Positions 14,253 to 34,511 of a DNA stretch of 34,765 bases are shown here, piece by piece. Below the pieces are notes generated by a model. The model ran no database searches and was not told where the DNA came from. It saw only the letters and a program-made list of their open reading frames with translations. Positions within the stretch are counted from its first letter, which is position 1. Every line of letters begins with the position of its first letter. A program made the translations under genes and the position numbers. The stretch spans positions 1 through 34,765 of the forward strand of contig JACPQZ010000029.1 of the NCBI GenBank assembly GCA_016190205.1. The letters run 5' to 3'. The stretch is from Candidatus Omnitrophota bacterium. Lineage in GTDB: Bacteria; Omnitrophota; JACPQZ01.

Positions 14253-14385
14253 AAGTAATTCCTCCTGCTTCTTCCTACTTCTACTTAACACTGGGGGGAG
14301 GAATTTGTTCCAAAGAGAAAAATTTATATTCTGCAATTAAATGATAACATGCGGAAGGGACCAAGGAAAGGATGCATTTTTAGTA

Positions 14386-14418: not shown

Positions 14419-14437
14419 TCGATATATTATTTTATCG
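14419..14437. other. Hairpin over the stop codon of the G2-like fibre gene
   Basis: Arms CTCGATA (14419-14425 region) and TATCGAG flank an AT-rich loop and overlap the TAA stop at 14429-14427. It may protect the mRNA 3' end or assist termination. Confidence 0.35.
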
Positions 14438-17974: not shown

Positions 17975-20407
17975 TTACTTTTTTATAGCGGTTTTTCTCG
18001 GCTTGGCGGCCCGATTCTGGTTTCTGGTTACTGGTTTCTGGTTGCTTCCCATGAGCACTTCCACCTGATGCACCTTGCCGTCCGAATGGGGCCGAACGAC
18101 GTTTCCTTCGATCTTCTTTCCGTCCACGGTCACTTCCCTGACGCCCGACGTGACGCCCTCGGGGTTGCGCAGGGTGATTTCATACACCGCCCCCCGGAAC
18201 GGGCGGCGTATCCACGCGCGGCGCCACCGCTTGGGAAGACAGGGATCGATCTTGAGGCCCTCGTAGTCGCGCCGCGCGCCCAAAATCCACTCCGTCGCCG
18301 CGGTGAACATCCAGGGGGCCGTCCCGGTGTTCCAGGTAAACGCCCCCTCGCCGAATTTGTACTCCGAGCCCGGCCCGATCACGTACTCCGCCCAGACGTA
18401 GGGCTCCACGCGGTAGCGCTCCGCATCGGACTTGGCCGGGTTCATGGGGGTGAGCTTTTTGAAAGTTTCGTAGGCGCTGTCGCCGCGTTTCAAAACACAG
18501 TCCGCCACGATCTTAAAGGCGCAGGCGTGCGAAAAGACGGCCGCATTTTCCTTGGTGCCTTCCGCAAAAGACGTGACGCGGCCTATCCCAGGATTAAATT
18601 TTGAATAGGAGGGCAGGAACAAGGCCGGCCCGTACGGGGTCTCCAGATAATGGTCAATGACGTCGAGGATTTTTGGAAGCCGGTCCGGGGGAACCACCTT
18701 GCTCAAGATGGCCCACGTCTGGCTATTCAAAGGAACTTTGCCTTCCTTATTGTCAGCCGAGCCGATCTTATAACCGTCGTCATTAAAAGCCGCAAGGTAC
18801 CACTTGCCATCCCAGCCTTGCGTGTTGACGATTGTCTTAAGCTCTTCGTATTTTTCCTGCATTTCCTTGGCCGTTTTGGGATCGCCAACGAACTCCGCCA
18901 GGCGTTTTACCTTCCGGCAGGCGCGCGCGAGGGCCATTCCCAACCACACGCTCTCCCCCTCTCCCTTCAGGCCCACGTGGTCATAGGCGTCGTTCCAGTC
19001 GGCGAGCCCTATCAAGGGGAGCCCGTGGCTTCCGCGCTGGCTGTAAATATAGCGCACGGCGCGCAGGACGTGCTCATAAACCGTGGCGGAGCCCCCGTCG
19101 TGGAAGGCCACCTCCTTTTTCAAAAAGTTGAGATCCCCCGTCTCCTTGATATAGGAGGCCACGGTGTATGGAAGCCACACGGCCACATCGGCCTTCTTGG
19201 TCACGCCCTTGGCGGCCGTGTTTTCCCAGGTTCCTTCAATATCTGAAAAACCGCTCACGGCGTGGCCGGAGTTGTACTGATAATAGAGGATTTTTTCAAG
19301 CTTCTTGCGGGCGATATCAAGCTCGAGGGACAGAAGGCCCTCGGAATCTTGGGCCGTGTCGCGGTAACCCAGGCCCCCCTCCACCCCGTGATAGTGCGAA
19401 GTCCCCCGCCAGTGGGTGATGGCGCAAAGCTGATATTTGCCCCAGATATTGACCATGCGGTCGAATTCGGGGTCGGGGGTGTTCACGCTCACCCGCTCAA
19501 TCACTTCATCCCAATATTCCTTAATATGGGCGAGCTCTTTCTTGGCCTGGGGAACGCTCTTGTATTTCTTGAGGAGCTGTGGCACATCATTGCGTTTGTC
19601 GGTAAAGCCCAAGACGACTACGAATTCCTTCGATGCGCCGGGGGCAAGCTCCACCCCGGTCTCGAGCACACCCACCATGTCCTCGCCGCGCGTCTCGGAA
19701 TTGCCGAGTTTACCATCCAAAATACGCTGCGGATTCTGGATATCATTGTACCGCCCAAGAAAGGACTCTTTCTGCGTGTCATGACCGGTGACCTTGGCGC
19801 TCGTGCCGAAGAAGGACCAGCCCTGCTTGTGAAAATGCTTAAACGGGTGCTTAAACGAGATGATCGCCTCCTGTTTGTTATCGTACCGGGCCTCGTTGTA
19901 GAGACAGATGATGTTCCGGTAACACGTCTCGACTTCCACATCACCCGAAATAAATTCTACGAAGGGATAAACCTTGAGCTCTTTACGCACCTTAGACCTA
20001 TTGGTGAGGGACACGAGCCACAGCTCCACCGGGTCCTCAACGGTCACGAGATAGGTGATCTCGGCGGCGACTCCGTCATTTTGGCTTGTGATGGTCGTAT
20101 AGCTTAAGCCCTGGCGGCACTGCCATGAGGTAAGCGGTTTTCGAAATGGCTGCCAGTTGGGAGTCCAAACCTTACCCGTCTTTTCATCCCTGATAAAAAT
20201 ATACCGGCCGGGACGGTCGGTATGAATGTGATCATAACGGAGGATGCGATAGTATTTGGGATCGAGATAATAGCTGTAGCCGCCGCCGGAATGAGACACG
20301 AGGGCGTGATAGCGGTCATTAAACAGGTAGTTAAACCAAGGGCGGGGGGTATCGGGCCTGGTGATGATGTATTCTTTTCCATCCGAACTGAAATAACCGT
20401 AACTCAT
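17975..20407 (-). CDS. Glycoside hydrolase family 94 disaccharide phosphorylase
   Basis: 810 residues with GH94 architecture: N-terminal beta-sandwich (about 1-270, starting SYGYFSSDGKEYIITRPDTP), a helical linker, an (alpha/alpha)6 barrel and a C-terminal beta sheet. The proton donor is expected to be Asp470 in GLADWND; GYRDTAQD and the final EYVIGPG and TGTAPWM blocks are also typical. It phosphorolyses a beta-linked disaccharide into an alpha-sugar 1-phosphate plus a free sugar. Cellobiose or N,N'-diacetylchitobiose are the usual substrates; the sequence alone does not choose. No signal peptide, so cytosolic. ATG 20407 follows GGAGGATTA. The C-terminus (QKPVTRNQNRAAKP) is encoded through a TGGTYNC heptamer array. 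It lies between a ROK regulator gene and a phosphohexomutase, which fits regulated catabolism. Confidence 0.9.
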   Translation of the reverse strand: MSYGYFSSDGKEYIITRPDTPRPWFNYLFNDRYHALVSHSGGGYSYYLDPKYYRILRYDHIHTDRPGRYIFIRDEKTGKVWTPNWQPFRKPLTSWQCRQGLSYTTITSQNDGVAAEITYLVTVEDPVELWLVSLTNRSKVRKELKVYPFVEFISGDVEVETCYRNIICLYNEARYDNKQEAIISFKHPFKHFHKQGWSFFGTSAKVTGHDTQKESFLGRYNDIQNPQRILDGKLGNSETRGEDMVGVLETGVELAPGASKEFVVVLGFTDKRNDVPQLLKKYKSVPQAKKELAHIKEYWDEVIERVSVNTPDPEFDRMVNIWGKYQLCAITHWRGTSHYHGVEGGLGYRDTAQDSEGLLSLELDIARKKLEKILYYQYNSGHAVSGFSDIEGTWENTAAKGVTKKADVAVWLPYTVASYIKETGDLNFLKKEVAFHDGGSATVYEHVLRAVRYIYSQRGSHGLPLIGLADWNDAYDHVGLKGEGESVWLGMALARACRKVKRLAEFVGDPKTAKEMQEKYEELKTIVNTQGWDGKWYLAAFNDDGYKIGSADNKEGKVPLNSQTWAILSKVVPPDRLPKILDVIDHYLETPYGPALFLPSYSKFNPGIGRVTSFAEGTKENAAVFSHACAFKIVADCVLKRGDSAYETFKKLTPMNPAKSDAERYRVEPYVWAEYVIGPGSEYKFGEGAFTWNTGTAPWMFTAATEWILGARRDYEGLKIDPCLPKRWRRAWIRRPFRGAVYEITLRNPEGVTSGVREVTVDGKKIEGNVVRPHSDGKVHQVEVLMGSNQKPVTRNQNRAAKPRKTAIKK
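18017..18044. repeat. Heptanucleotide tandem array, 4 units of CTGGTTN
   Basis: CTGGTTT, CTGGTTA, CTGGTTT, CTGGTTG in a row, inside the 3' end of the GH94 gene. Written as TGGTTNC it matches the TGGTCGC array at 23572 as a TGGTYNC family. Confidence 0.92.
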
Positions 20408-21895: not shown

Positions 21896-21915
21896 CAGAC
21901 ACACATGTGTGTCTA
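21896..21915. repeat. REP palindrome, second 5' copy next to the RAYT ribosome site
   Basis: Same sequence as 21821-21840 except the last base (G to A), 75 bp further on and ending 5 bases before the GAGGAGG ribosome site of the transposase gene. Confidence 0.88.
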
Positions 21916-21933
21916 TCTGAGAGGAGGTATGTT

Positions 21934-22581
21934 ATGGCAACACCACGCATAGTTCTACCAGACTACCCTCATCACGTAATTCAGCGAGGGAATAGAAATC
22001 AAAGGGTGTTTTTCACAGATCAGGACCGAAAGGCATATCTACGATTCCTTGAAGAGGCGGTTGCCAAATACCGCCTTGAATGTTGGGCTTATTGCCTTAT
22101 GGACAACCATGTCCATTTGGTGCTTGTTCCAAGGACACAAGACTCTTTGGCAAGGTGCATTGGAGAGGTGCATTATAGATATTCCCTGATGGTCAACACT
22201 AGAAATGGCTGGGCCGGCCATCTCTGGCAAGGTCGCTTTTTGAGCTATCCTATGGAAGAAAGGCACCTCTATGCAGCGGTGCGTTACGTGGAGTTGAACC
22301 CCGTGCGAGCTGGCTTGGCTGCGCTAGCTGAAGATTACCAATGGTCCAGCGCAAGGGCTCACGTCCATCAAGTGCACGACAGGCTGCTAACCGAGAGTTT
22401 CCTAAATCAAGAGTTAAGAAACTGGAGGAACTATCTTTACGATCAGGAAGATGTTTCAATGACTGAACAAATTGAAGATCACATGAAGAACGGCTCACCG
22501 ATGGGAAGCGGCGAGTTTGTCAGTGCCGCTTCCAGACACACTGGGGTGTCTGGCAGACACCCCAGTGTGTCTGCCAGCTAG
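21934..22581 (+). CDS. REP-associated tyrosine transposase (RAYT, Y1/TnpA_REP family)
   Basis: 215 residues. The single-strand-transposase HUH motif is His59-Val-His61 in LMDNHVHLVLVP and the catalytic Tyr is expected at Tyr118 in AAVRYVELNPVRAG; QRGNRNQRVFF and DYQWSSARAH are also family hallmarks. RAYTs are domesticated IS200-like enzymes that recognise and mobilise REP hairpins. ATG 21934 is set by GAGGAGG six bases upstream. Two REP palindromes precede it, and a REP doublet forms the 3' end of the coding sequence (residues RHTGVSGRHPSVSA). All catalytic residues are present, so it looks intact. It is on the plus strand, unlike its neighbours, and its last four bases overlap the convergent gene at 22578. 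Confidence 0.93.
   Translation: MATPRIVLPDYPHHVIQRGNRNQRVFFTDQDRKAYLRFLEEAVAKYRLECWAYCLMDNHVHLVLVPRTQDSLARCIGEVHYRYSLMVNTRNGWAGHLWQGRFLSYPMEERHLYAAVRYVELNPVRAGLAALAEDYQWSSARAHVHQVHDRLLTESFLNQELRNWRNYLYDQEDVSMTEQIEDHMKNGSPMGSGEFVSAASRHTGVSGRHPSVSAS
22532..22575. repeat. REPIN: two inverted REP hairpins at the 3' end of the RAYT gene
   Basis: CCAGACAC-ACTGGG-GTGTCTGG followed directly by GGCAGACAC-CCCAGT-GTGTCTGCC. The 6-base centres are reverse complements, so the pair is a larger inverted repeat, the hallmark of a REPIN. It is read as coding sequence by the transposase gene. Confidence 0.9.
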
Positions 22582-23564
22582 AGATTACGGAGCTTTTGAT
22601 ATGCGCGGCCGAGGGTTTCCCAGACGAGCTGGGGATTGTCGCTCGCGAGGTGCGACATGTAACCTGTGCCCAGATAGCTCCAGGCAGCCAAGTTGCGGAT
22701 TCCCTCCTTGTAGGCAGCCTCGCAGGCCCGTGCAAGGTCACTTTCCGTGCCCTGTTTGATACGAAAGGCGAGGATCCAGATTTGAGCTTCCTTATTGTAT
22801 AAGCGGGCAAGGTCAGCTATTTTTCTGGAATACTCCCGGACAATCTCCTGCGCCTTGATGCCGCCCAGGTGCCAGTAGGGGTCAGTGCCTATGATGTCAA
22901 GGCTCTTGATGCGGGCCACGGTGTCCCAGTCGGCCAGGCAGTCCGGAACGATATAGGGCGGCAAGAGGCACACGGCGTTTCGTTTGCCCCGAGCCTTTAC
23001 CCGGTCGCAGAGCTCGGTTAAGAAAGTGACGATGGAGTGATCTCTAAATTTACGCACCTCGGGCGTCAGCTCGAGCGGCAGGTCCCTCCCGCTCGCCGCC
23101 TTAAATGCGATCTCGCAGTGAATGCAATGACAGGCCCAGTCATCGTCCCCCTTTTCAAAAATGTGGAAATGGGGTTCGTCCCAAAAAAGGACGTCTGCCC
23201 CCAGCTCAATCGCGGTATCAGTCCAGTGAGTCATAAAACGGCGGAAATCAGGATTGTTGATGCAGGCGATTGCGAGGCTCTGGCCCTTGGCGCTCACCTG
23301 GCGGTGGTCCAGATGGGTCGCGATAAGTCTCGAAAAGGTTTCCCCTCCAAAAACCTGACCCACCCCCCAGGGATCCACCCAGACCTCAAGGCCTGCCTCG
23401 TGCGAGATCGCTACGATCTCCTTCATCGTGCCGGCATAAAAGGCGAGATCCGTTTCGCTGAAGGTGTGCACCACATAGGTGCAGTGATTGCGCATCATCA
23501 CTTCGGCATCGCGCCGGAAATGTTCAGGGTTGCGGTTGCCGAAGTAGCTGATGCCGGTCTTCAT
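22578..23564 (-). CDS. TIM-barrel glycosidase-like protein, function unknown
   Basis: 328 residues without signal peptide. The start KTGISYFGNRNPEHFRRD and HTFSETDL, VWVDPWGVGQVFGGE, then ELGADVLFWDEPHF and ACHCIHCEIAF resemble a group of TIM-barrel proteins related to glycoside hydrolases that carry a C-x-C-x-x-C...F motif after an acidic strand end; Glu in FWDEPHF is a candidate catalytic acid. I do not recognise a characterised member, so no substrate is proposed. The ATG overlaps the last base of the upstream gene's stop (TAATG), implying coupling, and it ends the seven-gene minus-strand run, overlapping the RAYT gene tail-to-tail. Confidence 0.65.
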   Translation of the reverse strand: MKTGISYFGNRNPEHFRRDAEVMMRNHCTYVVHTFSETDLAFYAGTMKEIVAISHEAGLEVWVDPWGVGQVFGGETFSRLIATHLDHRQVSAKGQSLAIACINNPDFRRFMTHWTDTAIELGADVLFWDEPHFHIFEKGDDDWACHCIHCEIAFKAASGRDLPLELTPEVRKFRDHSIVTFLTELCDRVKARGKRNAVCLLPPYIVPDCLADWDTVARIKSLDIIGTDPYWHLGGIKAQEIVREYSRKIADLARLYNKEAQIWILAFRIKQGTESDLARACEAAYKEGIRNLAAWSYLGTGYMSHLASDNPQLVWETLGRAYQKLRNL

Positions 23565-24493
23565 TATTTGTTGGTCGCTGGTCGCTGGTCGCTGGTCGCT
23601 GGCGATGAGTGATCCTTTTCCTGGGGAGGAGTTGCAGGCAGAGCCCCCGGCCGGGGAGCGGAAGGCTCCTGAATCACTTCCCGAAATATCCCCTCGCCGT
23701 CGTTTTTGAGCGTCCGCTTAACCCCGCTGACGGTAAGCACAAGATCGGGGACACCATCCTGATTAAAATCTTCCACCCGTATCGCGCTCGCAAAAAAGAT
23801 GAAGGGCACCCCGTCTTTATCAAAAAGGCGTTTGATGGCCTCGTCCGCAAGATTTCCGCCCGCGTCACGCACCATAACCTCCACCAGCGCCTCCCCTCCG
23901 GTCTGAATGCTCGGATCCACCCGGATCAAGTCCTCATCTCCATCCCCATCGATATCCACCGGGACCGGTTCAATGGAAATGGGCCTGGCGTCAACCGGAG
24001 GAAAATCTTCAAAAGGAGGCGGCGGCATAAACTCCTCCGGCAAAAACTCCTCGGGAGGCGTTCCCTCCCAGGGGGGTTCTGGAAGCGGCGGCGGCTCTGT
24101 TTGAGAGGCTGGTGCGACGGGCCGGGGCTTCACGGCCGCGGCTTTCGCGGGTTTCTTGGAATCGGCGGGCGCGGGTCTCGCACCCCCGCCGTCGAAGCCT
24201 ACGGGACTTAAAATGGTAACGCTCCCGCCCGACGGAGCCGGGGTACGCGGCAAAGTTGTGATGGTCTGCGTTTCGGGTCCGGGTACAGGCGGGGTCACTA
24301 TAACTGGAGCGGGCGATGCTTCTTCCCCGGATTCCTGTCCCGCATCTATCTCGATATCACTGTCCGTATCAGACGGCAAGGCCTGCTGGGCGGCGGGCTC
24401 CGCGCGGATCTCCGCGCGAACGTCCACGCGCGAATCTGCACCAAAAGCGCTCGTGCTTAATAAAAAGAGGCAGATGAATGCGCGGATGAGCAC
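23564..24493 (-). CDS. Secreted proline-rich protein with calcium-loop-like repeats
   Basis: About 309 residues from GTG 24493, chosen because AGGAGG lies six bases upstream; a TTG at 24508 overlapping the previous stop is the alternative. A signal peptide (LIRAFICLFLLSTSAFGA) precedes a low-complexity Pro/Ala/Glu region (to about 190) and a C-terminal part with DIDGDGDEDLIRVD and DFNQDGVPDLVLTV, which are FG-GAP/dockerin-like Asp-rich loops likely to bind calcium. It is probably exported and may bind a partner or envelope. The last residues (SSPATSDQRPATNK) are encoded by the TGGTCGC heptamer array, a repeat-derived tail. No specific function can be assigned. Confidence 0.7.
   Translation of the reverse strand: MLIRAFICLFLLSTSAFGADSRVDVRAEIRAEPAAQQALPSDTDSDIEIDAGQESGEEASPAPVIVTPPVPGPETQTITTLPRTPAPSGGSVTILSPVGFDGGGARPAPADSKKPAKAAAVKPRPVAPASQTEPPPLPEPPWEGTPPEEFLPEEFMPPPPFEDFPPVDARPISIEPVPVDIDGDGDEDLIRVDPSIQTGGEALVEVMVRDAGGNLADEAIKRLFDKDGVPFIFFASAIRVEDFNQDGVPDLVLTVSGVKRTLKNDGEGIFREVIQEPSAPRPGALPATPPQEKDHSSPATSDQRPATNK
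23572..23599. repeat. Heptanucleotide tandem array, 4 units of TGGTCGC
   Basis: Four exact 7-bp units covering the 3' end of the FG-GAP-like gene, ending just before its stop codon. Confidence 0.95.
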
Positions 24494-24504
24494 CGGCCGC
24501 CTCC

Positions 24505-25323
24505 TCAAGGCGCCTCAGAAGGATGTACCGTTAAATCCATCTCTTCCTTGAGTATGACTACGGGGTTCCCGAAGACGAGTTCGACCTTGGCGTGATACTT
24601 TCCGGGCGGGAGAGGTTTATCCAAACGGATGGTAAAGGGCGCCGACTCCTGATACATGAGGGGGTGTCCCCGCTCGTTTACGGGAACGACCACCGCGCCT
24701 TCCGCGCCCACTTCCCCAGCAGGGGTGATGACGAGCTCACCCTTTGGACGGATATGGACATTGCCCTCATTTTGAATGGCAACGCGAAAAACTTGCGAAT
24801 CAGGTTGAAATGAAAACTCCGTGACTTTAGCGCGGATGTCCTCTGTTCCACGGATAATGCAATACACGGCATTTCCGATCCGGGCAACTACCGACACAGC
24901 GCCTTCCCCTTCTTCCAAGGCCCGTTGTTCAAAAAAGACGTGACCCTTAAGCTCCGCCTGGACGCCTTCTTTGGGCACCGCCACCTTGTAGGCAAGTTTC
25001 CCGCTCTCACCGGGCCTTAAGGCAATCTCCACCTGCTTCAAGGTAAGCCACGCCTTGAGCGCGCCGGCGTCCCGACCTTCGCCCACCAGCGCGCGCTCCC
25101 ACTCCGATTCATCTTCGAAACTCGCCTGAATCACGACCGCCGCATCGGCCGTATTGGTCACCTCAAACTCGCCCTCGTACTCGCCGCCGGGGGGGATGTA
25201 CATTTCCACCACGGCCGGCGCGACCTTCATGGCAAGTGCAGGCTGTGCGCAGGACAGGAAAATAAGCCCAAGTGCGGCGCACAACCCGATAAACCGTGTG
25301 AAATGACTTGTAAGTTTTCTCAT
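24505..25323 (-). CDS. Secreted Ig-fold protein resembling a PapD-type pilus chaperone
   Basis: 272 residues with a signal peptide ending near ALA (about residue 31; LSC in the same segment could be a lipobox). The mature part starts KVAPAVVEMYIPPGGEYEGEF-VTN, then RPGESGKLAYKVAVP, the two-strand pattern of bacterial Ig-like/PapD-like domains, followed by a second beta domain (GNVHIRPKGELVITPAG, LPPGKYHAKVELVFGN). PapD proteins cap fimbrial subunits in the periplasm, which would suit the four secreted paralogues encoded upstream, but no usher gene is present, so this is inference; a general envelope adhesin domain is also possible. It overlaps the next gene's longer start by four bases. Weak ribosome site. 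Confidence 0.65.
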   Translation of the reverse strand: MRKLTSHFTRFIGLCAALGLIFLSCAQPALAMKVAPAVVEMYIPPGGEYEGEFEVTNTADAAVVIQASFEDESEWERALVGEGRDAGALKAWLTLKQVEIALRPGESGKLAYKVAVPKEGVQAELKGHVFFEQRALEEGEGAVSVVARIGNAVYCIIRGTEDIRAKVTEFSFQPDSQVFRVAIQNEGNVHIRPKGELVITPAGEVGAEGAVVVPVNERGHPLMYQESAPFTIRLDKPLPPGKYHAKVELVFGNPVVILKEEMDLTVHPSEAP

Positions 25324-25373
25324 AGCCCTTATTCTATACTATCTTTGCTGCACGGCCAAATCCGATCCACCGC

Positions 25374-27587
25374 CTAATTCGTGAGAAGCTCAAACACGAC
25401 TTCCGACCTGTAATACTGATCTTGCACTCCAAAAAGGTCTACGGCAAAGAACACGGGAAACCCAAACGGATCGAGCGTGGCATCACCGCGCTCCGTCCCG
25501 TCATGCCAAGTGAGACGGCGCCACGTGAAGCGATCAGCCGTGTGCTCGTCGTTTTCGGGAAGATTGAGCCAATTAGGCTGCCGCTCGTTTGGAGGAAGGT
25601 TTGTATCTCCTTCCCATGCCAAAGCGATGTTCGGATCGGGAGGGATTCCACTTCTCGTGTCCGTACTGTCCGGCCCGTAATTTTGACACCACACCTTGAC
25701 CGGAAGCATGCTGGCATTATCGGCTCCCACCAGCCCGGGGAGGGGTGGAGTCCCGAAAAAGGTATCGTTATCTGTAAACACGCGGATGGTAAAGGGGATA
25801 TTCGCGGAATATCTGACCAAGAGAGACTCGGGCGTTCTCACGCGGCGCCTGTCCGGAGCGCCGGAGACGGTCCCGAAGCTCACGTTTTGCATGGCGTCTA
25901 CACCGGAGAGCAACCCCACCCCCGCCGTTTCCCCAAAAATCCCCAACGATTCGGATTGATCCAACCCGCTCCCATGAGCCTCATAAGCAAGCGGCCCCGA
26001 GGTTGCATAGGTCAACTGCCCCTTGCTAAAAGTCATACTCGTCACCTGACCTGCGATGGGCTCCGTGCCGGTTATCTTGAGCTCCCCCTCTTTAAAAAGC
26101 ACATTTTTGGGGAGGACATCCCCCCCTTCAAGCGAAGTTACGGAGGCCGGGGAAAATTGAACGGCCGCCCCGGGTTCCAGGCTTAAGGTTTCCGCGTAGG
26201 TATAGGATGGACTTGACCAGGAGCGGTACTCCAGGGTAACGGTGTTGGCGCGCTCCGCATGGGCGTTTACGAGACTTACAAGGGTGCTTGTCCCGCTCTT
26301 GACGCCCTTTAGTTCTGAATAGGTATCCAGAAAATACGGAAGATACAACACAAAACTTCCTTCCGGATCAGGCGGCGTGGGAGCGGCCAGGGGGGCTTGA
26401 GACGCGCTGGTGATAAAACTCCCGCTCGCAGTCACCGTCATGTACCCCTCTTGGGGCAGGAGTTCGGACGGCAAAATCCGGCTAAGATCGTATACGGCGC
26501 TCTTCCCTGCCTTAAGAGCGACCCCTTCCGGCGAATCCGTAATCTGCCCCAGAAAATTCACCCTGTGCACGGCGAGCTCATTTGCAGTCTCCGCAAGATT
26601 CACGAGATAAAGGCGGGGGCCGGCCGCGCCCGCAAAAGGAAGGTAAAGTTTATATTCGCCCTCGTCGTTCAAGGGCGGCTCACTTTGCAAGGGCAACTCC
26701 GAAATTTTCACGAGCCGGTCCTCAACATATTCAAAACCCACCGCCTTACCCGCAACAGCATGCACACTCCTTATGCCGATTGCGCCTTCTCCGAAAGTTA
26801 CATTAGGGGGGATGCGCCCCTTTTCAAGTGAAGAAGCCGATGCAGGGGAAAATAAGACTGCTTCCCCGGGTTCCAGGCTTAAGGTTTCCGTGTAGGTATC
26901 GGATGGACTTGACCAGGAGCTGTACTCCAGGGTAACGGTATTGGTACGCTCCGCGTCGGCGTTTACAAGACTTATGAGGGTGAGCGGCCCTTGCCGCACA
27001 CCGCCTGACTCGGCGTAGGTGTCCACAAAATGCGGAAGATGGAGTGAAAAATACCCTTCGGAATCCGGAGGGGAGAGGGCTGTGAAAGGAGCTTGAGCGG
27101 CTGAAAGGGTCTCGCCATTTTGAAACAATGTAGTAACAACGTACCCCACAATCCCGCGCGTCGCTTCTATGCGGAGGCGGCCTTCCGAAAAGGGAATATT
27201 TTCTGGAATTTTGGTACCCTTTTCGAGATCAGTCGCCAAGGAAGGCGAAAAGAGGATGCTCTCCTGGGGATTGAGGAAAATCGTCTGGACGTGACGGACA
27301 GCGGGATCGGCCCAACTTGTGGCGATAACGGTCACCGTATTTGCGAAACGGGCATCTGTATTCGTTAGACCCACAAGTGCGATGAGCCCGCTTTTTTGGG
27401 CAAGGGCCTCGGCACCGTCCGGATCGGCCCCCGGATCCTCCCGGAAATACGAGTCATAGATGACCTCGTACGGAGGAACCGTTAGATCAATCTGGACTGC
27501 GTCTTCCTGTTCAGCCCCCGCCCCGGAGGAACAGAGGGTCACAAGAGCAAAAACCCAGCACCGCCAGGCGCACGCTTTCGCGGTCAT
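25374..27587 (-). CDS. Large secreted repeat protein sharing a C-terminal domain with three small neighbours
   Basis: 737 residues with a signal peptide (WVFALVTLCSSGAGA). It carries four ~130-residue beta repeats of the type LVSLVNA...NTVTLEY-SWSSP...LSLEPG-AV-FSPAS (about 68, 202, 324 and 430 onward); repeats two and four are nearly identical in DNA (26868-26924 and 26168-26224), so duplication is recent. The C-terminal ~190 residues (VSFGTVSG, LPVKVWCQNYG, FFAVDLFGVQDQYYRSEVVFELLTN) match the three smaller proteins encoded upstream. ATG 27587 follows GGGAGG. I take it as an exported adhesin or fibre tip joined to the small subunits; family not recognised, function inferred. Confidence 0.7.
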   Translation of the reverse strand: MTAKACAWRCWVFALVTLCSSGAGAEQEDAVQIDLTVPPYEVIYDSYFREDPGADPDGAEALAQKSGLIALVGLTNTDARFANTVTVIATSWADPAVRHVQTIFLNPQESILFSPSLATDLEKGTKIPENIPFSEGRLRIEATRGIVGYVVTTLFQNGETLSAAQAPFTALSPPDSEGYFSLHLPHFVDTYAESGGVRQGPLTLISLVNADAERTNTVTLEYSSWSSPSDTYTETLSLEPGEAVLFSPASASSLEKGRIPPNVTFGEGAIGIRSVHAVAGKAVGFEYVEDRLVKISELPLQSEPPLNDEGEYKLYLPFAGAAGPRLYLVNLAETANELAVHRVNFLGQITDSPEGVALKAGKSAVYDLSRILPSELLPQEGYMTVTASGSFITSASQAPLAAPTPPDPEGSFVLYLPYFLDTYSELKGVKSGTSTLVSLVNAHAERANTVTLEYRSWSSPSYTYAETLSLEPGAAVQFSPASVTSLEGGDVLPKNVLFKEGELKITGTEPIAGQVTSMTFSKGQLTYATSGPLAYEAHGSGLDQSESLGIFGETAGVGLLSGVDAMQNVSFGTVSGAPDRRRVRTPESLLVRYSANIPFTIRVFTDNDTFFGTPPLPGLVGADNASMLPVKVWCQNYGPDSTDTRSGIPPDPNIALAWEGDTNLPPNERQPNWLNLPENDEHTADRFTWRRLTWHDGTERGDATLDPFGFPVFFAVDLFGVQDQYYRSEVVFELLTN

Positions 27588-27611
27588 GGGACCTCCCGCG
27601 TCTGATGCCCT

Positions 27612-28436
27612 TTACTTCGTTACGAGCTCAAAATACAGCCGGCCGTCATCGTCTGCTTCGGACGTCGTTCCTTTAGTATCAGTCATGTATTTCCTATCAT
27701 CCACGCCCAGGAGATCTACAGCAAAGTAAACTCTAAACCTATCACCCGGTTCGGAAACATAGGTCCTCCCGGTAATAGGATCTAACGTGGTGCTCAAAAG
27801 CGCGTAATAAGGCGGCGAGCCAGAAACATCCAATGCTCTGCTTTCTCGCTCACCCACAAACTTCCAAACACCGTTCGTTTGATCGTTCCAAAGAACGTTT
27901 TCTTTCGGGTCCGGTACTCTGGCATTCGATGAGACAGTTCCTATAATGTCAGGATAGCCGTCTCCATTTCCATCCTGGGGAGTCAGCATACCAGAACTGT
28001 TAGGGTTAGGACCAATGACCGGTGTCCAAACCCTCAGATCGAGACGAGGAGGAACGAACGTTAAAGGCTCTCCATTTTTTCGCACGCCAGGTATACCCGT
28101 TTTACTTCCACTCACGTCTATTCCATCGCTCGTAAAGCACCTTAAATCAAACGCATCGGCGACGAAATAATCGATCTTGAGCTCTCCGAATGGTATTCGC
28201 TTAAGCGAACTTCTCCCAGGCGGAAGTGTAACAGCCGGTAGCGCACTTATAGGCTGGTTCGAGCTATTCCTCACATCGAGCGAAAGACCTGCATCTCCAA
28301 GGGTTTGCACCGTGATATCCAAAGTGATCGAGTCTTTTATCGAGGCTGCCTGCGCGGGCGGCGCCACCCAGAACACCGTAAGCGCCGAACTTACCAGCGC
28401 AGCCACTAACTTTTTCATCCCATTTCTCTTTTTCAT
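27612..28436 (-). CDS. Secreted protein, member of local paralogue family
   Basis: 274 residues; signal peptide MKKLVAALVSSALTVFWVAPPAQA (after seven residues), mature start SIKDSITLDITVQ. It shares with its neighbours a mid-motif FGELKIDYFVADAFDLRCFTSDG and a C-terminus VYFAVDLLGVDD...LYFELVTK. A loop has NPNSSGMLTPQDGNGDGYPD, an Asp-rich calcium-like loop. ATG 28436 follows AAGGAGA. Role unknown; likely a surface or periplasmic subunit. Confidence 0.7.
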   Translation of the reverse strand: MKKRNGMKKLVAALVSSALTVFWVAPPAQAASIKDSITLDITVQTLGDAGLSLDVRNSSNQPISALPAVTLPPGRSSLKRIPFGELKIDYFVADAFDLRCFTSDGIDVSGSKTGIPGVRKNGEPLTFVPPRLDLRVWTPVIGPNPNSSGMLTPQDGNGDGYPDIIGTVSSNARVPDPKENVLWNDQTNGVWKFVGERESRALDVSGSPPYYALLSTTLDPITGRTYVSEPGDRFRVYFAVDLLGVDDRKYMTDTKGTTSEADDDGRLYFELVTK

Positions 28437-28483
28437 TGTATTCTCCTTTTGTCCTGGGGCGATTGTTTAAAGTGTACCGTCAT

Positions 28484-29266
28484 TTACTTGTTACGAATCT
28501 CAAATATAAGTTCTCCCCGATAGGTCTGCGCCGGAGTGCCCAGCGCGTCAAAGGCAAAATAGACCTGAAAATTGTTGGGGGCGATTTGCATCTCATTGGG
28601 GTCCAAAACACTCGGGTCCGAACTCGAAAGGACCGTTAAAAACGGGTCTCCGTCCACATCGGTGCTGTCCTTTTCCGCAATGAGCTTCCACACCCCGCCC
28701 AGGCGCTCTCCCCCTCCGCGCCCGTCCGGAAGGCCGTCCGGGTCATCGCCCGGTTCCAGGGGCCCCTCCGGCCCATCCGGGTCCACGCTCCCCCACAGGG
28801 AATCTATCTGGGGGTCTGGCACCGTCGCCTGCGCTGTTACGGGGCCCAGGGGATCTATCATAGGCGACTCACTCGGATGGATGGGTATTCCAAACGGAGC
28901 GGCCCAGGTTTTTAAGAGCAGCCGCCGGCCTGAATCGCCCACGCCCTGAATCCCGAGCGTTTGAGAGGTGCCTCCGTCGTCGGTAAAAGCAATTAGATCA
29001 AAAGCCCCGGCCGCAAAGTAGTTCACCCGCACTTCTCCAAAACCGAAGCGGTGCCGCGCGCTTGAGGGGGTCACGTTTACTTGAGGAAGTTCGCCGATGG
29101 GGTTAAGATCACGGTCCTTAAGCGAAATCTCCGAAACCCCCTGCTGAATGGTGACCTCTACCGCAATGGAGTCGGACATATCCGCTGCCGCGGGGCTCGC
29201 GCCGCAGCACAAAGCTATGGCCACGATCAAAACTCCCAAAACCGCTCTTCTGAAACTACCTTTCAT
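28484..29266 (-). CDS. Secreted protein, member of local paralogue family
   Basis: 260 residues from ATG 29266 (GGAG seven bases upstream); a frame opening at 29296 starts inside the inverted-repeat element and is less likely. Signal peptide ends near PAAA; mature start DMSDSIAVEVTIQ. Shared family segments: FGFGEVRVNYFAAGAFDLIAFTDDGG, LLLKTWAAPFGIP and the C-terminus VYFAFDALGTPAQ...LIFEIRNK. A Pro/Gly/Asp-rich insert (GPEGPLEPGDDPDG) sits in the middle. Function unknown. Confidence 0.7.
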   Translation of the reverse strand: MKGSFRRAVLGVLIVAIALCCGASPAAADMSDSIAVEVTIQQGVSEISLKDRDLNPIGELPQVNVTPSSARHRFGFGEVRVNYFAAGAFDLIAFTDDGGTSQTLGIQGVGDSGRRLLLKTWAAPFGIPIHPSESPMIDPLGPVTAQATVPDPQIDSLWGSVDPDGPEGPLEPGDDPDGLPDGRGGGERLGGVWKLIAEKDSTDVDGDPFLTVLSSSDPSVLDPNEMQIAPNNFQVYFAFDALGTPAQTYRGELIFEIRNK

Positions 29267-29291
29267 TCTGAAGCTCCGCTTCTGTTCTCCT

Positions 29292-29385
29292 GTCATTGCG
29301 AGCCACGCAAAGCGGGGGAAGCAATCTCATGAGATTGCTTCCCCCGCACCAGAGCGCCTTGATCTCGGTGCGGGGTCGCAATGAC
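29292..29385. mobile_element. Short inverted-repeat element (MITE-like), GTCATTGCGAG ... TCGCAATGAC
   Basis: The ends are inverted copies of GTCATTGCGA and the middle GAAGCAATCTC-AT-GAGATTGCTTC folds back on itself, so the whole 94 bp can form a long hairpin. A longer relative lies at 34527-34694. It occupies the spacer between two secreted paralogue genes. Confidence 0.85.
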
Positions 29386-29399
29386 GCGCGAGGGAACTC

Positions 29400-29984
29400 T
29401 CATTGATTAAGGATCTCGAATATGAGCGTTCCCCGGTACTCCTGCTCGGCCACATTCAGTGAATCAATGGCGATATAAACATCCACTCTGCCCGTCGGCG
29501 TGTCTATCCCGACTGGTGAATCTTCTGTCAGGTTGAGCTTCCCGGCTTCGTTCACTTCTGGGATTGTGCTCCAGACAGCCGACGTATCGCCCACCCAATT
29601 CGCGTTATCCTGGGGGTTGGGTGGAGTGGCTCCTCCCACTCCTGCGCCGAAGTTCTCGGTCCAGGCCCTAAAGGGCATCTGCGCGCCATTGGTCCCGATG
29701 AGCCCCGTCCTATTCTCGGCATTGTCGGTGTACACAAAGATATGGGATGCCTGGGTGGTAGAATAGGTCACGGCAATCGGTCCTTGAGCAAACCGGTGGA
29801 GACTAGCAGTCCTCTGCACAGTCCCAAAATTGACATCGGATGGAGTGACCGTGACAGACAACTCTCCCGATGCAATAACCACCACGACGCTTACCGTATC
29901 TATCGCGGCCCAGCCAGGGGGTGAGCCCAGCACCCAGCTGACAGCCAGCGCCACGCTTATGATTTTCCTTAAGACCCTGTTCAT
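29400..29984 (-). CDS. Secreted protein, smallest member of local paralogue family
   Basis: 194 residues; signal peptide (KIISVALAVSWVLGSPPGWA), mature start AIDTVSVVVVIA. It is nearly the minimal form of the shared domain: VNFGTVQRTASLHRF, IAVTYSTTQASHIFVYTDN, MPFRAWTENFG, and the C-terminus VYIAIDSLNVAEQEYRGTLIFEILNQ. First gene of the seven-gene minus-strand run. ATG 29984 with a G-rich, poorly matching ribosome site. I see no clear promoter in 29985-30143, though TTGACT at 30105-30110 could be a -35 box. Function unknown; a beta-sandwich subunit is likely from the strand pattern. Confidence 0.7.
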   Translation of the reverse strand: MNRVLRKIISVALAVSWVLGSPPGWAAIDTVSVVVVIASGELSVTVTPSDVNFGTVQRTASLHRFAQGPIAVTYSTTQASHIFVYTDNAENRTGLIGTNGAQMPFRAWTENFGAGVGGATPPNPQDNANWVGDTSAVWSTIPEVNEAGKLNLTEDSPVGIDTPTGRVDVYIAIDSLNVAEQEYRGTLIFEILNQ

Positions 29985-30143: not shown

Positions 30144-30605
30144 TTACGCCGCACCTCTTTGAAGAGCATCTTCCATGCTCTTGAGTAGAATTTCCAAAGA
30201 GCTCTGAATTTCCCCGCGTCTATCTACGGGGATCGAATTCATCACTTGAGCAAAGTGCGCCCGTTGAGACTGGATGATATCCTCTACCAATTCTCTTCCC
30301 CTTGCCGTGGGACGGACGAACACTAACCGGCGATCCGTAGCGTCCCGGACACGTTCCACCAAACCCCGTTGGGCCAGGTTGTCAATGTTCCGGGTCATGG
30401 TGCTTGTGGAAAGCCCCATGCGCTGCGAAAGCTGATTCATCGTCAGCTTCTCCTGGGCGGCAAAAGAAAGAAGTGTCTGCGCCTGCGAGTTTGTCACTTT
30501 CAGGCTGGAGCGCTTATCCCGACCTAGTCTGTAGTAAGTGCGCACAAGGTCTGTAATGGTATCGCCTACATTGCGCACTATTTCATCAAGCTGCCTTGGC
30601 TCCAT
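30144..30605 (-). CDS. MarR-family transcriptional regulator
   Basis: 153 residues with the MarR layout: dimerisation helices at both ends and a winged helix-turn-helix at about 40-103 (LTMNQLSQRMGLSTSTMTRNIDNL, wing DATDRRLVFVRPT with the conserved DRR). MarR proteins are dimeric, ligand-responsive repressors of adjacent genes. ATG 30605 follows a GGGGGA stretch. It is divergent from the ABC transporter gene, with its own promoter in the shared spacer, so that transporter is a possible target along with itself. Confidence 0.92.
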   Translation of the reverse strand: MEPRQLDEIVRNVGDTITDLVRTYYRLGRDKRSSLKVTNSQAQTLLSFAAQEKLTMNQLSQRMGLSTSTMTRNIDNLAQRGLVERVRDATDRRLVFVRPTARGRELVEDIIQSQRAHFAQVMNSIPVDRRGEIQSSLEILLKSMEDALQRGAA

Positions 30606-30690: not shown

Positions 30691-30719
30691 AATGTAACAT
30701 GCATTGTGCCAGGTGTCAA
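30691..30719 (-). promoter_or_regulatory. Promoter of the MarR gene
   Basis: Minus strand consensus TTGACA (30719-30714), 17-bp spacer, TACATT (30696-30691), about 85 bp before the ATG. ATGTAACA at 30692-30699 and its inverse TGTTACAT at about 30752-30760 could be MarR half-sites. Confidence 0.7.
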
Positions 30720-30806: not shown

Positions 30807-30835
30807 TTGACAAGGCGCCGCGCCGTTGTTATACT
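30807..30835 (+). promoter_or_regulatory. Promoter of the ABC transporter operon
   Basis: TTGACA (30807-30812), 17-bp spacer, TATACT (30830-30835), 41 bp before the ATG at 30877. The spacer holds GGCGC-C-GCGCC and a second GGCGCC lies just after the -10 box, possible operator sequences. Confidence 0.78.
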
Positions 30836-30876
30836 GTGGCGCCATTCAGAATGAAAATCCCCACAGACAGAGAAAT

Positions 30877-33147
30877 ATGGCGTTACACAATCGTTTGATT
30901 AGGCCTTTCCGGGTTTTTGCCTGCCTATTTTTCCTATCCTTAATTTTTGCCACCGATATATCCGCTGACGATAAAGCCGCGGGAGAAGGGCCCGTCGTCC
31001 TCAACTTTTGGGAGCTCTCTGTACAGGAAGAGCTCATGCGGGTCCTGATCGGAAAATTCGAAGAGGAAAACCCCGGTATTGAGGTGCGCCTCCAGCTCCT
31101 TTCCTGGGACTCGGGGTTCGACAAGATCATCACGTCCATCGCAGCCGGAAACGCCCCCGATGTCTGCGAGCTGGGCACCACGTGGGTGCCGAAGTTTTCC
31201 CACTCGGGCGTCTTGCGCGATATCACAGACGAAGTGCGGGATATACGCGGCGAATACTTCCTGTGGGAGCCCACCCTTTATCAGGGAAGGGTGTACGGCG
31301 CGCCCTGGCTTGCGGGAACGCGCGTCATGATCTATAACCGCGATCTTTTTTCGCAGGCCGGCCTGGACCGCGACGATCCGCCCAAAACCTGGAACGAGCT
31401 CCTCGAGGCCGTGCACCGCATCGATGAACTAGGGCCCGAGACCTACGGCTTCGGCATATTCGCGGGCGAGGGAGATTCCGTCTGGCAGGAATTCCTTCCT
31501 TTCGCGTGGGGAAACGGCGGCGAGGTGCTCAACAAAAACCATACGGCCTCGCGCCTCGCTGAGCGAGAAACCATCGAGGCGCTGGAATACTACCGGCGTC
31601 TTAAGGAATTCTCCCTGGTCGACCGCCAGGCGCAGGTGAACCAGCTCTTTGCCGACGGCAAGATAGGTATTCAGATTTCGGGCCCGTGGAACTTTACCAT
31701 GATCCCGCGCCAGAACCCGGACCTAAACTTTGGAGTCGCCCTCCTGCCGAGGCCCGATAAGCCGGGCGGCGTGGGGGCCGCCTTTGCCGGGGGAGAGATC
31801 TTGACCATCCTTTCGAACTCGAAGCACCCGGCCGAGGCCTTCAAGCTCATTCAATTTCTCATCCGCGGCGATAACGCCATCGAGATTACCAAGCTTCAGC
31901 AGAATATCGTCCCCACGCACAAGAACATCATCCAGCACCCCTACTTTCAAACCCATCCCAACCAAAGGACTTTCTTTAAACAGCTCGAGACCGCCGTGGC
32001 TCCCCCCAGCCACCCGGACTGGGTAGAAATTCAGGAGCACGTCACGCGGGCCGTTGAAGAGGTGATCTTCCGGGACCGGAAGCCCCAAGAAGCCCTGGAC
32101 GATGCCTCGGCAAAGGTAAACGCCATACTGGAGCGCGAGGAAGACAAAGTCACCATGAGCGACGCCTTGATCACAGCGAGCATCCTCCTTCCCATCTTCC
32201 TCTTCATCGCCTTTAAGCTTCTCACGCTGCGAAAAGGAAAGACCCGCGAACAGCGCTTCATCTTTAAAAGGGACTACGCCTCGTTCCTCTTTATTTTACC
32301 CTGGCTTTTGGTCTTCCTTTTGTTCGGGCTTTATCCCCTGCTTTTTTCGGTCATCATCAGTTTTACGAAATACAATCTTCTTACCGCGCACCTCTCCTTT
32401 ACAGGCCTGGGCAATTTTGTGAGCGTCCTCATAGACCCCGAATTCCATAACGCGCTCTGGCACACCTTCTTCTTCGCACTCGGGACCATCCCGTTTACCA
32501 TATTTTTCGCCCTGGCGAGCGCGGTGCTCATCAACCGCCAGGTCCCCTTTAAACAGCTTTATCAGGCGGGCCTGTTTCTACCCGTCTCGACATCGGTCAT
32601 CGTGATCGCCACCATATTCTCGTACCTTTATTCTCCGGAGGGACTCATCACGCAGGCGGGAAATGCCCTGCTGGACCGCTTCAGCCTCCCCCACCCCGAC
32701 TCAAGCTGGCTCAATGACGTCCATTGGGCGCTTCCCAGTATCATGGCCATGAACGTCTGGTCCAGCTTCGGGTATTACATGGTCCTGTTCCTCGCGGGCC
32801 TTCAGACCATTCCGCACGAATTCTACGAGGCCGCCGACATCGACGGGGCGGGGGAATGGCAGAAGTTCTGGCACATCACCCTTCCACAGCTTAAGCCCAT
32901 CATGCTTTTTGTCATGGTCATCAATACGATTCACTCCTTCCAGGTCTTTCCCGAGATATTCGCCATGACCAAGGGGGGACCCTTGGGCAGCACCACGACG
33001 GTGGTCTACCACCTCTACGAAATCGGCTTTCACCGGTTTGAGATGGGCCAGGCCTCTGCCGTGGCCTACATCTTGTTCATGATCATCATGATCTTCTCGC
33101 TTCTGCAGATGCGCGTATTTCGATTCGGGGAGACGCAGGCGGAATGA
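30877..33147 (+). CDS. Sugar ABC transporter: family 1 solute-binding protein fused to MalF-type permease
   Basis: 756 residues. After a signal-like membrane segment (FRVFACLFFLSLIFA) comes a complete MalE/UgpB-type binding domain to about residue 425 (LNFWELSVQEELMRVLIGKF, ITSIAAGNAPDVCELGTTW, AFAGGEILTILSNSK). A linker membrane helix (about 430-450) leads into a six-helix MalF-type permease (FILPWLLVFLLFGLYPLLFS, ISFTKYNLL) with the ATPase-contacting EAA loop at about 651-676 (EAADIDGAGEWQKFWHITLP). It would capture a sugar in the periplasm and pass it through the membrane. These parts are normally separate genes. ATG 30877 is used because the promoter's start point lies after an earlier in-frame ATG (30826). 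The MalG-type partner overlaps by four bases; no ATPase gene is in the window. Confidence 0.92.
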   Translation: MALHNRLIRPFRVFACLFFLSLIFATDISADDKAAGEGPVVLNFWELSVQEELMRVLIGKFEEENPGIEVRLQLLSWDSGFDKIITSIAAGNAPDVCELGTTWVPKFSHSGVLRDITDEVRDIRGEYFLWEPTLYQGRVYGAPWLAGTRVMIYNRDLFSQAGLDRDDPPKTWNELLEAVHRIDELGPETYGFGIFAGEGDSVWQEFLPFAWGNGGEVLNKNHTASRLAERETIEALEYYRRLKEFSLVDRQAQVNQLFADGKIGIQISGPWNFTMIPRQNPDLNFGVALLPRPDKPGGVGAAFAGGEILTILSNSKHPAEAFKLIQFLIRGDNAIEITKLQQNIVPTHKNIIQHPYFQTHPNQRTFFKQLETAVAPPSHPDWVEIQEHVTRAVEEVIFRDRKPQEALDDASAKVNAILEREEDKVTMSDALITASILLPIFLFIAFKLLTLRKGKTREQRFIFKRDYASFLFILPWLLVFLLFGLYPLLFSVIISFTKYNLLTAHLSFTGLGNFVSVLIDPEFHNALWHTFFFALGTIPFTIFFALASAVLINRQVPFKQLYQAGLFLPVSTSVIVIATIFSYLYSPEGLITQAGNALLDRFSLPHPDSSWLNDVHWALPSIMAMNVWSSFGYYMVLFLAGLQTIPHEFYEAADIDGAGEWQKFWHITLPQLKPIMLFVMVINTIHSFQVFPEIFAMTKGGPLGSTTTVVYHLYEIGFHRFEMGQASAVAYILFMIIMIFSLLQMRVFRFGETQAE

Positions 33148-34511
33148 TTACGGAAGAACGACGAAGGACGAGGGACGCGGGACGAAGGACGAGCGACGAG
33201 GGACGGCCCATGAGACGGGAGCGGATACTTATCTGGATCAGTGTCGCGATTCTCACGGCCATCGTCGTCCTCACCCTCATGCCCCTCATCCTGATGTTCT
33301 ATACCTCTTTCAAGCCCGCAGGCACTTTATTTCAGCCCGTGAGCGACATCCTGGTGGCGGATTTTAACGAGGGCGAGACGAACTCCATCGGGGGGGTCAT
33401 CGCGACCCGCGCGGATCCTTCGTCCGGCATAACCTTAGGAGATGCGGAAAACCGCGACCCCGAGAAACCCGGCCGCAGTCATACCATTGAGTATCGGCAC
33501 AGCCCGGGGTCCACCACGCTCTGGTGGACGCACCTGGGACAAGATTTGAGGAAATTCAGCGAGCTGGAGTTCTATGCCCGCGGGGAGGCGGGCGGCGAGA
33601 ACTTCTTAATAGAATTTTCCGATATTAACGATAGAACCATCTCATTGCCGCTCAAAGAGATACTGCCACAAGGCCTGACGCCCGAATGGCGCAGGATGAG
33701 GATTCCCGTCACGCGCTTCGACCTCTCCGGGCTCTTGCCCGGAATCTCCGAAAAACGCGCGGAGGAGCTTAGGTTTCGATTCACGGAACCCGGCTCCGGA
33801 CGCATTTACTTAGACGACATCCGCCTCCCCTTCAAACGTTTCACCATTTCAAATTACACCGACGTTGTGATCAGCGGCCCCTTCGGCCGCTACTTTTTTA
33901 ACAGCACCCTGATCGCGCTCATCGTAACGCTTGGAAACCTCATTTTCCCCGCCATGGTGGCCTATGCCTTTGCCCGTAAGGAATTTCCCGGGAAGCGCCT
34001 CATGTTTATCCTCATCGTGGGGAGCATCATGATTCCGCCGCAAGTCCTCATGGTGCCCGTCTTCATCCTTATGAAGAACATCGGCTGGCTCAACACCTAC
34101 TGGGCCCTGACGGTGCCGGCCCTCATCGCCCCCTTTAACATCTTCCTCATGCGCCAGTATATCTCCAAGCTTCCCCTCGCCATGGAAGACGCGGCGCGCG
34201 TCGACGGCGCGAACGACTTCCAGATCTTTTTCCGGATCATCCTCCCCCTTTCCAAACCGGCCTTGGCCGTGGTCGGCATCAACACCTTCATGGGAAGCTG
34301 GAATACTTTTCTTTACCCCTTCATCCTCACCAACACCACCGAGATGCGCACCCTCCCGGTAGGTCTTGCCCTCTACAAAAGCCTCCACGGCGTGGACTGG
34401 GTCCACCTCATGGCCGGCTCCGCCATCAGCGCCCTCCCCGTCATCGTCGTCTTCCTGTGCTTCCAACGGTACATCATTGCGGGACTTACGGCGGGAAGTG
34501 TGAAAGAGTAG
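33144..34511 (+). CDS. Sugar ABC transporter MalG-type permease with inserted periplasmic beta domain
   Basis: 455 residues versus ~280 for a normal MalG. After the first membrane helix (about 28-52) there is an inserted ~165-residue domain (about 68-235) with VADFNEGETNSIGGV, LEFYARGEAGGENFLIEFSD and GRIYLDDIRLP, resembling a CBM11/CIA30-like galactose-binding beta sandwich that would face the periplasm. The permease then resumes (YTDVVISGPFGRYFFNS) with the EAA loop EDAARVDGANDFQIFFRIILP. It pairs with the upstream binding-protein/MalF fusion (ATGA overlap). The N-terminus (RRRTRDAGRRTSDEGRP) is encoded by a GGACGAN heptamer array; ATG 33210, with GAGGGA supplied by the repeat, is an alternative start. 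The ATPase must come from elsewhere. Confidence 0.88.
   Translation: MITEERRRTRDAGRRTSDEGRPMRRERILIWISVAILTAIVVLTLMPLILMFYTSFKPAGTLFQPVSDILVADFNEGETNSIGGVIATRADPSSGITLGDAENRDPEKPGRSHTIEYRHSPGSTTLWWTHLGQDLRKFSELEFYARGEAGGENFLIEFSDINDRTISLPLKEILPQGLTPEWRRMRIPVTRFDLSGLLPGISEKRAEELRFRFTEPGSGRIYLDDIRLPFKRFTISNYTDVVISGPFGRYFFNSTLIALIVTLGNLIFPAMVAYAFARKEFPGKRLMFILIVGSIMIPPQVLMVPVFILMKNIGWLNTYWALTVPALIAPFNIFLMRQYISKLPLAMEDAARVDGANDFQIFFRIILPLSKPALAVVGINTFMGSWNTFLYPFILTNTTEMRTLPVGLALYKSLHGVDWVHLMAGSAISALPVIVVFLCFQRYIIAGLTAGSVKE
33154..33204. repeat. Heptanucleotide tandem array, about 7 degenerate units of RGGACGN
   Basis: AACGACG, AAGGACG, AGGGACG, CGGGACG, AAGGACG, AGCGACG, AGGGACG in register, in the 5' coding end of the MalG-type gene. 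Same family as the GGACGAN array in the phosphohexomutase gene. Confidence 0.88.

Follow-up and report, generated by a model that had tools for sequence, protein, structure and literature searches.

Can a cluster of secreted proteins grouped around an immunoglobulin (Ig)-fold protein build a surface structure when no usher is encoded with it? This question is raised by seven genes (22578-29984, minus strand) on contig JACPQZ010000029.1 of a Candidatus Omnitrophota bacterium (assembly GCA_016190205.1), which we analysed over the whole stretch of 34,765 nucleotides (nt), here called the window. The original prediction, made from the sequence, had described four paralogues and a PapD-like protein and had proposed a possible new surface structure. 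Our analysis points to a system of the PapD/WxLIP kind that exports and displays subunits with the aid of a chaperone, in a form without the barrel-like protein that accompanies the chaperone in most relatives. We give this reading a probability of roughly 0.6.

The Ig-fold protein is encoded at 24505-25323 (minus strand) and comprises 272 amino acids (aa) with a signal peptide and two Ig-like domains. It has no C-terminal transmembrane (TM) helix, the best 19-residue Kyte-Doolittle (KD) value being 1.41. Searched against Pfam and NCBIfam the protein gave nothing above the cut-off, with PF06030 below its own. A profile of its homologues in the phylum matched EfmWxLIP1, a WxL interacting protein (WxLIP) of Enterococcus faecium, in the PDB along its length (E = 9.6e-10), and also the E. 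coli pilus chaperone EcpB (E = 3e-4). Alignment of the family profile to EcpB by hhalign gave 92.4% and E = 5e-7; the corresponding alignment to FimC was not significant, although the folds match. The best fold matches of the AlphaFold2 model (pLDDT 75, pTM 0.51) were WxLIP with a Z-score of 13.2 and FimC/SfaE with about 12. The pilus-chaperone-like Ig protein of the original prediction is thus supported by a predicted two-domain PapD-like fold with matches to EcpB and FimC-type chaperones. The protein is a distant homologue of both WxLIP and EcpB, and WxLIP, which had been missed, is its closest relative in structure and in sequence. A scan of contigs from other genomes yielded a single locus (L019), which has two WxLIP-like proteins (7366-8295 and 9896-10918) that carry C-terminal TM helices and have small secreted neighbours.

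Upstream of the chaperone gene lie four genes on the minus strand for proteins with signal peptides, which we call subunits A (29400-29984, 194 aa), B (28484-29296, 270 aa), C (27612-28436, 274 aa) and D (25374-27587, 737 aa). Subunit A consists of a single subunit domain and has a relative with 43% identity in genome G038; B and C also carry the subunit domain. The earlier claim of four paralogues with a common domain holds beyond chance: phmmer within the window gave E-values of 1.6e-24 for B-C, 2.8e-13 for A-B, 9.6e-11 for A-D, 8e-6 for D-B and 4.9e-5 for A-C. In D the shared domain forms the C-terminal ~195 residues (25374-25967) and ends 1 aa before the C-terminus. The phmmer matches cover residues ~558-737 of D, the A-D alignment spanning 558-736. 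As had been proposed, D is enlarged by four repeated modules of beta type (residues ~61-545, 25953-27407), which precede the C-terminal subunit domain. Modules r2 and r4 are 55% identical (1.9e-43), r1 is 34-40% identical to these two, and r3 is weakly related (1e-5 to r1). The modules had no match among PDB sequences or in Pfam. Searches of A-D against Pfam, NCBIfam and PHROGs gave nothing convincing, profiles built from the subunit alignments found no match in the PDB, and profile searches overall linked the shared domain to no known family. D is a probable adhesin or tip, and probably a polysaccharide-binding adhesin displayed by the system.

Structure prediction of the subunits, as suggested with the original prediction, gave a weak model for mature A (mean pLDDT 57, pTM 0.59). 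Its best fold matches were the donor-strand fimbrial subunits DaaE, AfaE-3, DraE, BPSL1626 and CfaE together with one viral envelope protein, at Z-scores of 5.8 to 4.7. Such scores by themselves are no proof, but the kind of matches fits the gene context as far as the model can be trusted. The 50 fold matches listed for A included no WxL chain, to which we attach little weight. The first strand of the model (residues 2-12) contains the alternating-hydrophobic sequence DTVSVVVVI (29874-29900), and comparable N-terminal strands are present by sequence in B (DSIAVEVTI, 29147-29173) and C (DSITLDITV, 28308-28334), all on the minus strand. We infer that these are candidate donor strands, and many small subunits of relatives begin with an alternating-hydrophobic strand of the same kind. 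At the other end, no more than 4 residues follow the last strand in 39 of 46 subunit-domain proteins; of the 17 large ones, counting that of the window, 13 end in this way. Such an ending is expected if the chaperone, like those of pilus systems, grips the carboxylate at the C-terminus.

An iterated profile started from A-D and one relative collects small neighbours of the chaperone as well as the C-terminal domains of large neighbours. The loci reached (L020-L024, L027, L031, L035) had been retrieved by the chaperone alone, so that the association of subunit and chaperone is independent. At four loci beside GH94 genes (L080, L083, L084, L088) the subunit domain of the large protein is N-terminal; the chaperones there have lost the Glu40 described below, two of them together with Arg192. 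At another chaperone locus (L029:1748-3009) small secreted subunits weakly match SCPU and DUF4402, which are archaic-pilin-like families.

EcpB is predicted to donate Ala111, Ala113, Ala115 and Ile117, and mutants show that it anchors its subunit by Arg89 and Tyr169, with a minor part played by Arg148 (PMC4654587). Matched to this register by hhalign, the putative G1 donor strand of the window chaperone comprises residues 143-149 (V143, V145, A147, I149; 24877-24897, minus strand). Hydrophobic residues occupy positions 143, 145, 147 and 149 in 78, 95, 40 and 93% of 55 family members, as against 13% for position 144, and Arg148 of the window chaperone is Arg in 49 of the 55. Two further positions concern the putative anchor. 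Glu40 (codon at 25204-25206, minus strand) is equivalent to Arg8 of PapD/FimC by spacing via the following turn, and is replaced by Arg or Lys in barrel-type relatives. Arg192 (codon at 24748-24750, minus strand) aligns with EcpB Arg148 (CsuC Arg174), a residue that contributes to anchoring the carboxylate in non-classical chaperones. The window chaperone has a match for EcpB Arg148 and no equivalents of EcpB Arg89 and PapD Arg8. Across the family the two positions are reciprocal: position 40 is basic in none of 24 window-type chaperones as against 25 of the 29 others, which are mostly of the barrel type, and position 192 in 20 of the 24 and 2 of the 29, these sequences being related by descent and thus not independent. 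No protein has basic residues at both. A change of the grip on the subunit would leave such a pattern.

The original prediction had noted that no usher is encoded and that a fibre, if there is one, would not be a classical chaperone-usher pilus, and the usher family PF00577 is indeed absent from the window and the genome. None of 94 genomes, our own included, has a match, and the E. coli control was positive. Most relatives in the phylum have a barrel-like protein in the usher's place, which had been missed. Of the 384 genomes sampled from the phylum, 144 match the chaperone profile (102 of the 249 good ones), and in most chaperone-bearing genomes a secreted protein of ~740-990 aa follows directly downstream (for example L026:6475-9450, L032:6521-9430 and L036:10606-13401). 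Its domains are, in order, TPR, T2SS/T3SS Pil_N, a barrel-like part of ~490 aa and SdrD_B/carboxypeptidase-regulatory. Judged from its sequence this protein is probably an outer-membrane barrel, and with a domain order that recalls an usher its family is a candidate for a new one; hhalign detected no relation of the barrel part to FimD or EcpC. A profile of this part matched 111 genomes, and 99 of 114 matches lie downstream of a same-strand chaperone, 91 of them no further than 1.5 kb away. The small secreted beta subunits beside the chaperone at these barrel-type loci are mostly of a different subunit family.

The subunit family of the window occurs in 25 genomes. All have a listed chaperone match except G058, where the chaperone matches are weaker. 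Conservation of gene order, which had been suggested as a check, is evident: 51 of 59 subunit matches lie within 12 kb of a chaperone, so the neighbours are kept together. The barrel profile has no match in our own genome, nor in 18 of the 25 genomes altogether. The absence of a barrel is therefore a recurrent type and not a gap in a single assembly, and the window subunit family is a separate, mostly barrel-less branch.

How does this branch compare with known systems? WxL (csc) clusters of Lactobacillales and Bacillales have a two-Ig interacting protein (WxLIP, DUF916/DUF3324) to which the window protein is distantly homologous. They share with the branch a gene set of secreted products, made up of an interacting protein, several small single-domain proteins and a large protein that carries the domain C-terminally. 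The window locus differs in having neither a WxL domain nor a dual W-x-L motif, no TM helix in the Ig protein and no LPxTG protein that we could see, and in belonging to a phylum with type II secretion system (T2SS) genes and outer-membrane-type proteins, which we take to be diderm. The WxL domain PF13731 was found in none of the 94 genomes (the Lactococcus lactis control was positive), and no Pfam family matched A-D. With the EcpB-type pilus system the locus shares a homologous periplasmic chaperone with the same donor-strand register and the Arg148-type anchor residue, a DraE/CfaE-like subunit fold as far as modelled, and a large two-part member with a C-terminal subunit domain. In contrast to that system there is no PF00577 usher and the EcpB Arg89 anchor is not conserved; no sequence similarity between the subunits and EcpA was detected by hhalign. 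The barrel-type loci of the same phylum have the chaperone family and adjoining small secreted beta subunits in common with the window, but possess the downstream barrel protein, mostly another subunit family, and Arg40 instead of Arg192.

Both nearest relatives work by strand donation or are predicted to, as a strand of WxLIP is predicted to complete the WxL sandwich (PMC10599100). The system would resemble a non-classical pilus chaperone in its working and a WxL cluster in its build, and it lacks a defining feature of each, having no usher and neither WxL domain nor membrane anchor. We found no paper that links DUF916 or Omnitrophota with a donor strand; of two papers that mention both WxL and chaperone-usher, neither is devoted to a connection of the two, judging by the titles. 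An extensive study of Omnitrophota genomes (PMC10066038) uses neither fimbria nor usher in its main text. No published name was found for the barrel-type loci, and the phylum-wide system to which they and the window locus belong is apparently undescribed.

A role in carbon-source acquisition has been proposed for csc clusters (PMC1534035, PMC10599100). The window operon is itself surrounded by carbohydrate genes. A sugar ABC transporter is encoded divergently (30826-34511, plus strand), with a solute-binding protein (SBP) fused to a permease followed by a second permease (Pfam SBP_bac_1 2.2e-48, BPD_transp_1), and GH94 and ROK genes are also near. The fusion (30826-33147) is a single protein of 773 aa and is conserved at L035. 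This locus belongs to another family and has, beside a like system, proteins 52% (ROK), 50% (the product of the last gene of the window operon, T328) and 58-59% (transporter pair) identical to those of the window. Among window-type loci 10 of 22 have carbohydrate markers as neighbours, compared with 1 of 29 among the others (p = 4e-4); counted by family the figures are 7 of 12 versus 1 of 13 (p = 0.011). The window was excluded from these counts, and the markers had been picked from it, which favours its relatives. Window-type loci thus have repeated carbohydrate-gene neighbours, a feature that had gone unnoticed. The GH94 protein of the window, of the cellobiose/chitobiose phosphorylase type, is located at 17975-20407 and is followed by a phosphomannomutase-like open reading frame (ORF) at 16638; GH94 relatives adjoin four other window-type loci.

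Several observations weigh against a chaperone-subunit display system. The subunit was modelled poorly, with no more than weak fold matches (Z < 6). Arg89, the key residue of EcpB and CsuC, is conserved in neither branch, position 127 being mostly Ala, Gly or Ser, and position 40 is the Arg8 equivalent by spacing alone. Our own genome has no known outer-membrane pore for the subunits, which leaves export to the surface unexplained, and the carbohydrate link, present in about half of the loci, could reflect the general gene content of the lineages. A new surface structure, as originally proposed, is likely; that it is a polymerised fibre is possible, as is a donor-strand groove in the subunits (mean pLDDT of the A model 57).

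Four other explanations have to be weighed. The locus could be a platform of the WxL/csc type that forms no polymer, in which the Ig protein, like WxLIP with WxL proteins, would bind the subunits permanently and fix D either to the cell surface or within the periplasm. This agrees with WxLIP as the nearest structural and sequence relative, one solved structure of which is bound to a long WxL protein, and with the matching set of small, large and interacting proteins. The missing TM helix of the window Ig protein, the absence of the WxL domain from all 94 genomes and the extra N-terminal alternating strand of the small subunits, which is suited to chaining, make it rather unlikely. We judge it similarly unlikely that T2SS or type IV pilus machinery exports the subunits and D, with the Ig protein as its periplasmic holding chaperone. 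Secretin, GspF or GspE genes do adjoin 5 of 22 window-type loci and none of the 29 others (p = 0.011), and the window itself contains a GspF gene (1305-2423). Yet that gene is 22 kb away, most window-type loci have no such neighbour, and such systems are common in these genomes.

An improbable alternative is that the locus is the remnant of a chaperone-barrel system, confined to the periplasm after loss of the barrel, or that the barrel is encoded in an unassembled part of the genome, which is 92.8% complete. A barrel follows the chaperone across most of the phylum, as the position of 99 of the 114 barrel matches illustrates; against this, 18 of the 25 genomes with the subunit family, spread over many families, have none, the window genes are intact and the anchors are conserved. 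The folds of chaperone and subunits would point to a classical chaperone-usher fimbria whose usher escaped recognition, but this is very improbable, as the chaperone anchor is unlike that of PapD and the PF00577 search of the 94 genomes with its positive control largely refutes this reading at the family level.

For a chaperone-subunit display system without barrel we propose the following working model. The 24505 protein would act as a periplasmic two-Ig chaperone whose G1 edge strand (~143-149) fills the gap in the beta sandwich of every subunit as it is exported, while its interdomain cleft would hold the C-terminal strand of the subunit; Arg192 would take part in the anchor in place of an Arg8 as in PapD. 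The single-domain subunits would be A, B and C, each with an N-terminal alternating-hydrophobic strand that is likely donated to a neighbouring subunit. D would be the terminal functional member, presenting four binding modules on its C-terminal subunit domain. The resulting A/B/C/D complex, which might be stacked on the surface or form a short fibre, would most likely attach the cell to a polysaccharide or a similar substrate, and attachment would work together with the GH94 phosphorylase and the divergently encoded sugar transporter. Export without a barrel might proceed through the type II secretion machine, which is a guess, or through another pore. Homology, the chaperone fold, the conservation of genes and of C-termini, the covariation at the anchor positions and the carbohydrate link are what the data show; donor-strand complementation, polymerisation, ligand and outer-membrane route are all inferred.

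The remaining genes of the locus and its surroundings are less closely tied to this model. All seven ORFs of the original prediction were located on the minus strand and are tightly packed, with gaps of 103, 47, 24, 50, -4 and -1 nt from A to T328. That all seven are secreted was supported for six, which have an N-terminal hydrophobic segment (best N-terminal 12-residue KD 1.87-3.23), and not for T328, which has none (0.60). The locus thus probably encodes six secreted proteins plus cytosolic T328, as predicted from hydropathy. T328 (22578-23564, minus strand) belongs to a family without name and had no match among PDB sequences. Its membership in the system is doubtful, as its stop and the end of a Y1 (IS200-like) transposase ORF on the opposite strand (21907-22581, plus strand) overlap by 4 nt. 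Between T328 and the chaperone lies FG314 (23564-24508, minus strand), a secreted protein with a proline-rich linker and FG-GAP repeats (Pfam FG-GAP_3 2.2e-7), which overlaps the chaperone stop by 4 nt and is weakly shared in other loci. Directly upstream of A a MarR-family regulator is encoded (30144-30605, minus strand; Pfam MarR_2 1.1e-16). A promoter-like site toward this gene and the operon (30691-30719, minus strand; TTGACA-17-TACATT, 10/12 in a consensus scan, which is no proof of function) stands back to back with one before the sugar ABC transporter (30807-30835, plus strand; TTGACA-17-TATACT, 11/12). Elsewhere in the window, a protein of 2634 aa (3296-11200) that matches nothing in Pfam contains repeats of the SQIGLxSDTDLLSLAAN type many times over. 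Beside it are encoded a Peptidase_S74 protein (12045-14336) and one of 656 aa (14427-16397) with a similar N-terminus.

As a wider and tentative reading, which we hold possible without favouring it, the family may constitute a third, as yet undescribed class of donor-strand chaperone-subunit system across a candidate phylum. One branch would have its own usher-like barrel, unrelated in sequence to FimD and EcpC, and the other, barrel-less branch would serve polysaccharide capture, with a change of anchor from Arg40 to Arg192; together they would be the evolutionary link from the chaperone-usher pili of Gram-negative bacteria to the WxL clusters of Gram-positive ones. The two subjects, pilus chaperones in the former and WxL clusters in the latter, have been treated separately, and a family profile that reaches both is a testable bridge between them. 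The anchor switch and the missing usher predict how the subunits are held and exported. For a poorly known phylum, with the family in 144 of the 384 sampled genomes, the locus likely represents an attachment system.

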